A stretch of 64,000 nt of DNA from Prochlorococcus sp. MIT 0604 (GTDB lineage Bacteria > Cyanobacteriota > Cyanobacteriia > PCC-6307 > Cyanobiaceae): contig NZ_CP007753.1 of assembly GCF_000757845.1 (NCBI RefSeq), positions 496,001-560,000 of the forward strand, written 5' to 3'. Each line of letters starts with the position of its first letter. The stretch's first letter is position 1. The notes under the pieces are model-generated. The model was not told the origin of the DNA and did no database searches. It saw only the letters and a program-made list of their open reading frames with translations. A program made the translations under genes and the position numbers. Below are positions 49,492 to 53,538 of the stretch, in pieces.

Positions 49492-51852
49492 TTAATCAAC
49501 ATTTATCTCTCCATTAATCATATAAATATTAATCTCGTCTTTATTAAGGTAATGATTATTCAATATATTATTTGAAATTTTTGTCTCAATTTGTTTTTGA
49601 ATAATTCTTTTTAAAGGCCTTGCACCATAGGCATGATCGAAACTATTTTCGACAAGTTGGTTAATTGCTTCATCCGTAATTTTGAATTTTAAGTTTTTTT
49701 TGTTAAGTCTTTTTTCTAAATGTTGAAGCTGGATTTTTGCAATTTCTTTTATGTCATTTAATTCTAAATTATTAAAAATAACTATTTCATCAAGTCGATT
49801 TAAAAACTCAGGCTTGAAAAATTTTTTTATTTCATTATCTACAACTTTTTTAATTTCATTTGTATCTTCTTGTCTAACTGATAAATCATTTATTGATTGA
49901 CTTCCTAAATTACTTGTGAGAACAATGATTGAATTTTTGAAATTAATTGTACGACCTTGACCATCAGTAATGATTCCATCATCAAGAACCTGTAAGAGAA
50001 TATCTAAAATATCTTTGTGAGCTTTCTCTATTTCATCTAGAAGTATTAATGAATAAGGATTTTTGCGTACAGCTTCAGTTAGTTGACCCCCTGATTCGAA
50101 CCCTAAATATCCAGGAGGCGCACCTATAATTTTGCTCACTGAATGTTTTTCCATATATTCAGACATATCCAGTCTTGTAATTGAAGAATTTGAATCGAAT
50201 ATTATTTTAGCTGTTACTTTACTTAGCTCTGTTTTTCCAACACCAGTTGGACCTAAAAAAAGAAAACTAGCTAATGGCTTGCTTGGATCATTTAGACCAG
50301 TCCTTGATCTCTTAATGGAATCTGCAACTGCTCTAATTGCACTATCTTGACCAATAATTTTTTCTTTAAGGACTGACTCTAGGCTCAAGAGTTTATCTTT
50401 TTCTGACTGGTTTAAGTTCTGTACTGGAATAGAGGTCCACTTTGAGACAACTTCTGCAATATCATCAAAAGTTACCTCTTGTCTTAAAAGACTTGTATCT
50501 CCATTTTTTTGAGAATTTACTAGGGACTTACTTTTTTCTTTCAATTTTTTTTGCAAGGAATTTAAAGTTCCAAATTCTAATTCTGCTGCTTTGTTGAGGT
50601 CAAAATTCCTTTTGGCTTGATCTATTTGCAATTGAACAGATTCAATTTCTTCTTTTATGGTGCTAATCTCATCTATTTCATCTTTTTCTTTTTTCCATTG
50701 AGCACCTAATTCTGCCTGTTTATCTTTAAGGGATTTAAGTTCATTATTTATTTTTTTTAATCTTTCTATAGAAAAATCATCCGTTTCTCTTTTTAAAGAT
50801 AATTTTTCCATTTCAAACTGTAGAACTTTTCGATCAATTTCATCAATTTCTTCAGGTTTGGAAGTTATGACCATATTTAATCTTGAGGCTGCTTCGTCGA
50901 TTAGATCTATTGCCTTGTCAGGAAGAAATCTATCGTTAATATATCTTTCGCTAAGGGTTGCAGCTGCAACTAAAGCATTATCAGAAATTCTCACACTATG
51001 ATGAACTTCGTATCTTTCTCTCAATCCTCTTAGAATTGATACAGTATCATCTATTGAAGGAGCATCAACTTTTATCTTTTGAAATCTTCGTTCTAAAGCA
51101 GGATCTTTTTCTATATTTTGTTTATGTTCATTAATAGTTGTAGCACCAATACATCTAAGTTCTCCTCTCGCAAGCATTGGTTTTAATAGGTTGCTTGCAT
51201 CTAAAGAACCTCCACTAGCGCCTGCTCCAACTACCGTATGAATTTCATCAATAAAAAGAATAATCTTACCTTCTGATTCTTTCACTTTCTTTAGTATATT
51301 TTTTATTCTTTCTTCAAATTCTCCACGATATTTTGCTCCAGCTAAAAGTGAACCCATATCTAATGAAATTAGTTTCCTATCTTGAAGCGCAGAAGGTACA
51401 TCGCCATTAATAATTCTTTGAGCTAACCCTTCTACAATGGCTGTTTTGCCAACCCCAGGTTCTCCAATAAGAACTGGATTATTTTTTGTTCTTCTACTCA
51501 ATATTTGAATTGTTCTTCTAATCTCTTCATCCCTACCAATAACAGGGTCTAAAATCCCATCTCGTGCAGATTGAGTTAGATCAATACCATATTTTTCCAA
51601 AGACTCATTAGAACTATTAAATTCATTTTTTACTGCGGGATCTGACTTCATTTTCTTTATAATTTCAAGAAATTCTGGAATACCTTTTTGATTTAAAATT
51701 TGAAATCCATATTTATCATCATAAGTGAAACCGTAAACTAAGTGTTCTGTTGATATCACTACATCATTTAAAGTATTTTTAATATCATTCGCCTTCAAAA
51801 ATACTTTGTGAAGTGTATCACCTATATATAAATTATCTTGTTTATTTCTCAT
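49492..51852 (-). CDS. clpB: ClpB-type AAA+ disaggregase, main frame (N-domain in other frame)
   Basis: The protein is a two-ring Hsp100 chaperone. Walker A of the first ring is GEPGVGKTA with [13 protein letters not shown]; the coiled-coil M domain (about residues 330-450 in this frame), rich in E/K/L, is specific for ClpB; the second ring has [20 protein letters not shown] and the C-terminal [12 protein letters not shown]. The ATG at 51852 gives 786 aa, lacking most of the N-domain. That domain is encoded immediately upstream in another frame, joined across an A8 run, so the complete product would be about 855 aa. Confidence 0.9.
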
Positions 51853-51905
51853 TTTTGCCTTCGCATTTAATGAAGAAATTATTTCCCTCTCAAGATCTTT
51901 TAGAT

Positions 51906-52073
51906 TTACATTATTTTTTTTAAAATCTTTTTTGTAATATTGTCATCTTTAATAAGAGCTAATAATAAATTATCAGAGTCTACATTTTGTTGATAATTTT
52001 TATAAGCAATTTCTTTGGCAAAAATAAAGCAGTTCCAAGCAGAATTTGAGAATTCGCTTGGAACTGTTTTCAT
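51906..52073 (-). CDS. ClpB N-terminal fragment, out of frame with the main body
   Basis: From ATG 52073, 55 codons encode MKTVPSEFSNSAWNCFIFAK and EIAYKNYQQNVDSDNLLLAL, which match the start of the ClpB N-domain (FT-x-K-A-W...A-x-x-I-A...x-H-L-L-L-A-L). Reading ends at TAA 51906-51908. If the frame shifts by -1 at the A8 run (51914-51921) it continues as NNVNLKDLEREIISSLNAKA and joins the main ClpB frame before residue 1 of the long ORF. So the gene is either frameshifted or needs recoding. Confidence 0.8.
   Translation of the reverse strand: MKTVPSEFSNSAWNCFIFAKEIAYKNYQQNVDSDNLLLALIKDDNITKKILKKIM
51914..51921 (-). other. A8 slippery run (-1 frameshift site) in clpB
   Basis: The coding strand reads TTA AAA AAA ATA ATG TAA here. 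A AAA AAA is a canonical -1 slippery heptamer. Slipping back one base gives AAT AAT GTA and restores the ClpB frame. The short run to a stop two codons later is typical of recoding sites, but a missing base in a homopolymer is equally possible. Confidence 0.6.
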
Positions 52074-52144
52074 CAATCAAAATTTTGGTATGACCGTAAT
52101 AAAAATTAAGTCAAAAAGAGTATTTAACTATTTACAATGTTTAT

Positions 52145-52495
52145 CTATTCAACAATAACTTTACCTACCATTCCAGCGCCTCTGTGTGGCTCGCAATAGT
52201 AATCATAAGTTCCAGCATTATCAAATGTTTCTTCCCAAGACTCTCCTGGAGCAAAAGCTAGGTCCGCATGACTTAAATCCTCATGCCCATCAAAAACAGC
52301 ATTGTGAGGGGCAAGTTTATTATTGACGAATTTAACTGTATCACCAGCACTAATGGTTACTGTACTTGGTTCAAATGCAAGCATTCCAGCATCTGTTCCA
52401 AGTTTTACTTCAACAGTCTTAGCTGAAACTGATGAAATACCAAGACCTAGAGTTAAGACTATTGCAAATAACCCTGCAAAGATTGAACGTAACAT
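52145..52495 (-). CDS. petE: plastocyanin
   Basis: Plastocyanin carries electrons from cytochrome b6f to photosystem I in the thylakoid lumen. A signal peptide of about 25 residues precedes the mature copper protein. The copper ligands are visible: His in LAPHNAVFD, and Cys, His and Met in [11 protein letters not shown]. The length is 116 aa. It is transcribed toward clpB, from an upstream spacer of 59 bp after the epimerase gene. Confidence 0.98.
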
Positions 52496-52554
52496 AATAA
52501 AAATTTGCTTATTTATACATATTACAAGGCTTTGGTAACCTAACTGTGAGAATT

Positions 52555-53538
52555 TTAATTGTTATTACAGCTTGGTAACTTTGATAACCTTAAAATATCA
52601 TTCAGTGACTTGGCATAACTTTTAAGTTTAAAAGTCTCAGGATTAGTGATGGGGACATGATTAAAGTCATATTTTTTGATACTGAAGCTATCCCAAGGAG
52701 TAGTTTGGATGGGGAGAATTCTTAATAATATTTTTAGGATTTTTTTTGTAAGCGGTATCGCAAAAAATCTCCTCATATTATGTTTCTTTAAAAGTGTAAT
52801 TATGGCATAATCAATAGAAATGAATTTTTGACCTAGCACAAATTTTCTAAAGCCTTTGTATTGCTCTTCTTTATGATTTTTAATTAGAAACCCGCAAATC
52901 TGGGCGATATCATTTGCGTGTATAAAGTGAAATTTAGAATCGAGTTTTAAAAATCTTGCTAACCAAAGCCATTTCCCAATTTCTTTCAATCCACTAGTTA
53001 AATAACTCACAGGGTATTTACTTTTTTTTCCAAGATTCCCTCCAAAAACCAAGGTAGGGAAGACAGCGAATGTTTTTTCTGCAAATGAGCTTTCTCTAAG
53101 TCTCTGGAAACATTCATATTTTGTTTGAATGTACTCTGTTCCATAAATCAATGATTCCCTCATTAATTCTGTTTGGGTATCAAGAATACTAGCTGTTGAA
53201 AAATAAATAATCTTTTCTAACTTTTCAATATCAAGCATTTCTAGTAATTCTTCAAAAGCTTTAATATTTACTTCATAGGCTCTTTTTGGATCTCCCCAAG
53301 CTGTAGCAGTATGAATTAGGTAATTAATTTGGCTAATTTCCTTTTTATACCTATTGGATTCTCTGATATCGCACACCATTAACTTGACTTTTTTATTTTC
53401 TTGAACAGAAATTGGTAACTTACTTTTGTCTCTTACCATGAGATAAAGCCTGAATTTTGTGTTTTTCAAAAACCAATCAACTAAATATTGGCCAACACAT
53501 CCATTAGCGCCTGTTATTAATAAGTTTTTATATCCCAA
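52555..53538 (-). CDS. NAD-dependent epimerase/dehydratase family protein
   Basis: The extended SDR fold is shown by [16 protein letters not shown] at residues 6-21, the [16 protein letters not shown] segment and the catalytic-type Tyr-Lys ([12 protein letters not shown]). The substrate is unknown. It is eight bases downstream of the hemE stop, so the two are co-transcribed, but no heme-related function follows from the sequence. Confidence 0.88.

Follow-up and report, generated by a model that had tools for sequence, protein, structure and literature searches.

Probable shortening of ClpB in Prochlorococcus sp. MIT 0604, with a terminator-like hairpin behind petE inside the clpB reading frame

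In Prochlorococcus sp. MIT 0604, the gene for the chaperone ClpB is divided between two reading frames within its N-domain and, by comparison with its relatives, appears to lack one base, through either recent mutation or assembly error. We propose, as the probable explanation, that this private base loss near codon 55 is tolerated through an internal start codon, ATG142, and that the N-domain has been exposed to loss by the terminator of the upstream gene petE, which would now lie inside clpB.

Results

Frame break in clpB

The genome is a single 1.78-Mb contig, from which we analysed a stretch of 64,000 nt (the window); all features described below lie on its minus strand. The N-domain stub (51909..52073) is an ORF of 55 codons that opens at ATG 52073, matches Pfam Clp_N with 21.9 bits (cut-off 20.7), and closes with a TAA stop at 51908-51906, directly 3' of TTA AAA AAA ATA ATG. 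The ClpB body occupies another frame, with 786 codons from ATG 51852 (49492..51852); this frame, which contains NNVNLKDLEREIISSLNAKA, is already open upstream of the junction. The two frames meet at a run of eight A (51914-51921) in the context TTTT-A8-T. A preliminary description of this DNA had reported a ClpB split at a slippery heptamer, and the split and the register are both borne out: A AAA AAA is correctly placed for a −1 slip, which would restore KKNNVNL, the same as in relatives.

The N region was read in 133 loci, 130 of them from the genus of the window. Clp_N shares one unbroken frame with the body, with at least 74 open codons upstream of codon 75, in 124 of these 130 loci; six are broken, and in the window Clp_N is confined to the 55-aa stub in the other frame. 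Among the 124 intact loci, the longest A run is A9 in 69 and T5A8 in 15, and the rest are variable; the window has T4A8. The T4A8 pattern was matched in 39 of 266 genus genomes, and among the 30 of these 39 places that were read, it falls in clpB only in the window. These comparisons support the single missing base that the preliminary description had offered as its alternative to programmed slippage. The A8 run itself is unremarkable for this genome, in which 110 A/T runs of at least eight occur inside 196 ORFs (224 kb). No match to the tract was obtained among viral contigs.

An assembly or sequencing error, with an unbroken run and a normal full-length clpB in the strain itself, is the strongest competitor of a real mutation, and we give it substantial weight as the less probable of the two. 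Homopolymer indels are a common error type, codons 1-74 of the window differ from the nearest relative by about four changes with no sign of decay, and a single assembly error would give the same window sequence. Against an error, no other private gene-internal frameshift was found in 71-72 syntenic genes (67-69 kb) compared with three relatives, despite the frequency of A/T runs of at least eight; by a by-eye reading of the indel list, the remaining non-triplet indels lie at ORF ends, in upstream start stretches or in compensating groups, or also occur between the relatives. Moreover, seven other genomes also have a broken N-domain, and one of them (G059) carries several lesions that cannot be one error. 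Taken together, these observations suggest that the A8 lesion is rather likely to be a real mutation.

Lesions of the N-domain across the genus

The seven other genomes carry differing lesions in the same N-domain: a +1 followed by a −1 change in G181, an exact 15-bp inversion creating a TGA in G082, a −1 followed by a −2 change in G113, gaps of 1, 3, 1 and 1 bases plus in-frame stops in G059, one nonsense change in G065, and nine stops in the N region of G225, which has a clean body and an unchanged gene order. G204 is counted among the eight lesions with a doubtful assembly, because another HSP100 gene in that assembly is in pieces. Other HSP100 genes are in pieces in both G204 and G206, which are single-contig relatives, and this may mean error-prone sequence. 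G019, in which clpB pieces are rearranged on one contig, was left out of the lesion count.

Known body lesions, among the matches listed, are those of G093 and G037. Without G204, seven of the nine known lesion-bearing genomes are broken in codons 1-141, which make up 16% of the gene (binomial P = 8.4e-5), and with G204 eight of ten (P = 1.7e-5); both values take the body lesions from the matches listed, so that body lesions may be missed. In a quick-method tree built from codons 161-860 of the body DNA in 64 rows (ref, L035, L036 and L280 excluded), the broken rows need eight separate changes, at least seven of which are forced by well-supported branches. On this sequence comparison, the genus appears to contain seven or eight independent breakages of the N-domain. 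A wider-family ortholog search covered 151 genomes; among the matches listed, the orthologs of other genera start at query residue 8 or earlier and have no stops, with G292 and G306 (contig end) as exceptions. A separate second clpB N-domain fragment of 51 codons, 80% identical and with one TGA, was seen at G011:C14:6740-6892, on the same contig as an intact clpB.

Internal start codon

The preliminary description had suggested ATG75 (51850..51852), the first in-frame ATG of the body, as the start of an N-truncated ClpB. ATG142 (51649..51651) is the better candidate. In G113 and G059, the last in-frame stop comes after ATG75, so that codon 75 is lost from the open frame, while ATG142 lies downstream of the last stop in all eight broken frames; in G225, no ATG, GTG or TTG other than ATG142 is left before codon 161. 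ATG142 is found in 169 of 170 loci, copies included, the exception being L037 from another lineage, and in 67 of 67 genus rows, one row being a copy (in the codon set, ref is a copy of L025 and L036 a copy of L270). Codon 142 is also the sole invariant residue between codons 136 and 158. M75 is likewise invariant (66/66), as are most other Met codons of clpB, so that the invariance of ATG142 is by itself weak evidence.

A second line of evidence comes from other cyanobacteria. In an alignment to solved structures, codon 142 corresponds to E. coli M143 and codon 148 to E. coli V149, whose GTG is described as the known start of the short ClpB (PMC6168691); in Salmonella, a profiling signal at Met143 is reported not to be the start, which was Val149 (PMC11005335). 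In other cyanobacterial lineages, codon 148 is GTG in 34 of 40 loci, with 12.5 expected from each gene's own valine codons, and in low-GC genes in 18 of 23, with 2.2 expected, a count reached in none of 200,000 simulations; L037 recurs among the other-lineage loci as L337, so that the distinct counts are 33/39 and 17/22. Among 25 valine columns in the low-GC genes, codon 148 has the top GTG share (18/23), and the next best has 7/22. These codon statistics are uncorrected for relatedness. Since GTG148 exceeds expectation in this way, the internal start looks selected in other cyanobacteria. In the genus of the window, GTG148 occurs in only 1 of 67 rows, and L339, from another genus, has both ATG and GTG, an intermediate. 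It thus seems that in the window's genus the internal start moved six codons upstream, with ATG142 replacing the GTG148 of other cyanobacteria.

Dual-start ClpB is marked by a conserved in-frame start codon in the linker, which is present here as ATG142 in the genus and GTG148 in the others. It is further marked by a Shine-Dalgarno sequence, for which no match was found before ATG142 (median percentile 0.785, n = 64). AGAGG-like sequence precedes codon 148 in many AT-rich other genera. Shine-Dalgarno-independent initiation in Prochlorococcus is discussed in PMC5607370, which also reports internal transcription starts of Prochlorococcus MED4 with possible shortened proteins; in the main text of that paper, the terms Clp and petE are absent. 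A short form is not universal, since A. phagocytophilum is described as making none (PMC11268196).

Initiation at ATG142 would yield a ClpB of 719 aa without the N-domain and with both ATPase modules kept, and losses of the N-domain would be tolerated because the internal start yields this protein. In the window strain, an otherwise ordinary cyanobacterial clpB would be missing a single base from an A/T homopolymer around codon 55, and ribosomes from the first ATG would stop at codon 55. ClpB would then be made mainly as the 719-aa form, with full-length protein at most in traces, from slippage on the A run. The earlier idea that one gene gives two ClpB forms probably holds in substance, and the route is more plausibly internal initiation than the slippage that had been suggested. 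To judge from their reading frames, several lineages may be able to make only shortened ClpB.

Hairpin and T-rich tract at the clpB start

The gene upstream of clpB is petE (52145..52495), which encodes plastocyanin (NCBIfam plastocyanin, 126.8 bits against a cut-off of 87.85) and whose stop lies 71 nt before the clpB ATG in the window. A survey of the junction in 127 loci (124 intact genus loci, the window, L035 and L036) found a colinear petE 59-78 nt upstream of the clpB ATG in 126; in the remaining locus, none was found in the stretch covered.

Codons 3-15 of clpB (52030..52066) form a hairpin of 16 pairs with one bulge (MFE −21.2 kcal/mol, z −5.37). Over its first 54 nt, clpB folds more stably than any of 196 other ORF starts from 224 kb, the best of which reaches −19.4 with a median of −5.5; only 2 of 6411 sense windows are as stable. 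Compared with synonymous recodings, the hairpin ranks in the lowest 5% in 126 of 127 loci; here and for the T-rich tract, the set consists of the 124 intact genus loci together with L035, L036 and L037, of which L037 belongs to another lineage. Across 101 distinct sequences, 98.1% of cells are paired and 26 cells are changed on both sides, compared with 6.1 in shuffles, and the covariation score is reached by none of 500 shuffles and by no slid control. Two coarser measures separate less well: at least as many pairs with two-sided changes (three) arise in 72 of 500 shuffles, one slid control has more (four), and the pair-type count is attained in 66 of 500 shuffles. All of these folding statistics are uncorrected for relatedness.

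The hairpin is followed by a T-rich tract, TTTATTTTT (52020..52028), which in the genus takes the form TTTTATTTTT, with T in 96-100% of the 127 loci at eight of the nine T positions and in 69% at the last. A stable stem followed by a T-tract, as in an intrinsic terminator, is thus present, and it outranks every other terminator-like site at the petE-clpB junction in each of the 126 loci with petE in view. A standard terminator scan, whose rules exclude a bulged stem, gave no site at the clpB start, and Rfam gave no match in 51400-52600. We regard the element as intrinsic-terminator-like, lying inside clpB codons 3-18, and termination at it as a prediction from its form. In G082 (L297/L135), the inverted segment is the loop between the hairpin arms (clpB codons 7-11; window equivalent 52041-52055), a spot able to flip because inverted repeats flank it.

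In other lineages, petE stands in the same order in 25 of 32 loci, with a gap of 145-1800 nt, and 22 of these 25 have a terminator-like site of −10 kcal/mol or below between petE and clpB (it is lacking in L332, L342 and L351), with the terminator-like T-tract 40-117 nt after petE. The simplest account is a contraction of the intergenic region, to about 66 nt, that brought the petE terminator into the clpB reading frame, where it would now occupy codons 3-18. Because it sits there, the N-domain would be exposed to loss, and the full-length message would probably be attenuated. At the start of clpB in G225, no 54-nt window folds below −10 kcal/mol, and a weak hairpin is visible by eye; the absence of a strong one argues against the hairpin being strictly required.

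It is also conceivable, though unlikely, that the hairpin acts not as a terminator but as a thermometer-like translational regulator of the first ATG. Its position within the ribosome landing zone fits such a role, and clpB is a heat-shock gene. A stem of about −21 kcal/mol would, however, probably be too stable to melt at growth temperatures, and both the conserved T-tract behind it and its distance behind petE, which matches that of the intergenic terminator-like sites of other genera, speak against a thermometer. Within the terminator reading, we entertain as a tentative and rather doubtful extension that the petE terminator in clpB works as an isoform switch, in which readthrough would give full-length ClpB, and termination combined with a promoter in the N-domain would give the short form from ATG142. 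A promoter scan, with 10 sites against 6.0 (sd 2.5) expected, was of no help here. If true, such a switch would couple the composition of the ClpB ring to transcription of the plastocyanin gene and would make the N-domain an optional part, discarded repeatedly by lineages.

Identity and selection of the ClpB body

Both AAA modules and the middle domain are intact in the body. Pfam finds AAA, AAA_lid_9, AAA_2 and ClpB_D2-small, the two AAA modules in the ClpB order, and the best-matching relatives of solved structure include ClpB of T. thermophilus and E. coli, with alignments that extend through the middle domain. TIGR03346 is the best NCBIfam family; the window body scores 1159 bits and an intact relative 1187, both below the curated cut-off of 1232. 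On domain order and best match, the predicted protein is a divergent ClpB that fails the curated TIGR03346 test. With genus ClpB at 1159-1187 bits against 1232, automatic annotation may misname it. The genus also has a second ClpB-like HSP100, represented by G000:C1:224802-227558 (L315:803-3559), with 918 aa and a weak Clp_N match; it scores 880 bits against the ClpB equivalog cut-off of 1232, and similar-sized genes recur in the genus.

Over codons 161-860, omega is 0.07-0.11 in six broken lineages compared with their nearest intact relatives, 0.05-0.09 in G225, which has no near relative, and 0.04-0.15 in 12 intact pairs. These values indicate that the motor domains of the broken lineages are under strong purifying selection. 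Codons 1-74 give 0.09-0.30 in ten intact pairs and 0.45 and 0.91 in two close pairs with few changes; among the broken lineages, some values are raised (0.62, 0.91 and one without synonymous change) and others are 0.18-0.23. In G225, nonsynonymous divergence reaches 0.70-1.18 in codons 1-74 compared with 0.14-0.16 in the body. Codons 75-141 (0.21-1.83 in intact pairs, 0.45-2.54 in six broken lineages) appear weakly constrained even in intact pairs. Most genomes retain an intact N-domain in which codons 1-74 are under selection, so that full-length ClpB would still be used there.

These data bear on whether clpB is dying in the genus, with the N-domain lesions as early steps of whole-gene loss, which we hold to be very unlikely. 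Such a course would agree with the body lesions of G093 and G037 and with seven genomes that are at least 88% complete and have no ortholog among the matches listed (G144, G010, G063, G126, G133, G232 and G264). Against it stand the equally low body omega of broken and intact lineages and the clean body that G225 keeps after decay of its N-domain. In addition, of ten genomes without clpB, nine are also without a close petE match and one has petE at a contig end, which suggests assembly gaps. The nine with neither a clpB ortholog among the matches listed nor a close petE are G144, G010, G063, G126, G133, G264, G062, G020 and G205, and their lack of both genes would be explained by assembly gaps at a single place or by loss of the entire stretch from petE to clpB.

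Discussion

Clarke and Eriksson (2000) reportedly described a short form of ClpB1 in the cyanobacterium Synechococcus PCC 7942. Dual-start ClpB is already known from E. coli, Salmonella and M. tuberculosis, where a single gene likewise carries an internal start codon in the linker that follows the N-domain (PMC6168691, PMC11005335). Our proposal departs from these systems in that GTG148 is gone from the window's genus (1/67) and ATG142 is fixed, and in that several lineages would have a shortened form only.

A programmed −1 frameshift or transcriptional slippage at the A8 run, which would give a regulated pair of stub and full-length protein, is a further reading; the preliminary description, which had raised such slippage, itself named a continuous frame in relatives as refuting it. 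In its favour are the slippery heptamer in register and the stop close behind, and some leak at the A run is plausible given that RNA polymerase slippage is reported as efficient in vivo at runs of 9 A or T (PMC5009743). As in dnaX-type frameshifting and poly(A) slippage (Thermus dnaX, Buchnera, Blochmannia; PMC5009743), an A run marks the frame break. In contrast to those systems, the arrangement is not conserved, the relatives carrying one frame at 124 of 130 genus loci, and no stimulatory structure of dnaX type was found: the RNA fold downstream of A8 is weak (z −1.73, with 15 of 200 shuffles equally stable) and of low frequency, in a calculation that covered pseudoknot-free folds. With A/T runs of at least eight ordinary in this genome and no evident use for the stub, programmed slippage is highly improbable.

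Mycoplasma ClpB is not known to carry an N-domain. The losses described here differ in being repeated and recent, within one free-living genus, and in leaving remains that are still readable. Mycoplasma is named as an exception to the two ClpB isoforms in PMC6168691, which also presents the role of the N-domain as disputed and the reason for conservation of the internal start as unclear. ORF-internal 3' ends are likewise already known, having been described for E. coli (PMC7815308), and ORF-internal terminators and attenuators similarly combine a hairpin with a T-tract inside an ORF. The element described here differs from these in that it seems to belong to the upstream gene petE as its terminator, which the clpB frame came to overlap after intergenic shrinkage. 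Among the top-ranked, mostly open literature results, we found no report of N-domain loss in Prochlorococcus clpB, nor of a start-codon shift or a petE terminator within it.

If a private base loss tolerated through ATG142 is the correct explanation, the genus offers a natural repeat of the N-domain deletion experiment, in which intact and broken sister lineages can be compared. The statistics on start codons suggest that the internal start is itself under selection. Finally, a petE terminator within clpB would show genome shrinkage pushing the signals of one gene into the protein code of its neighbour and thereby altering the product.
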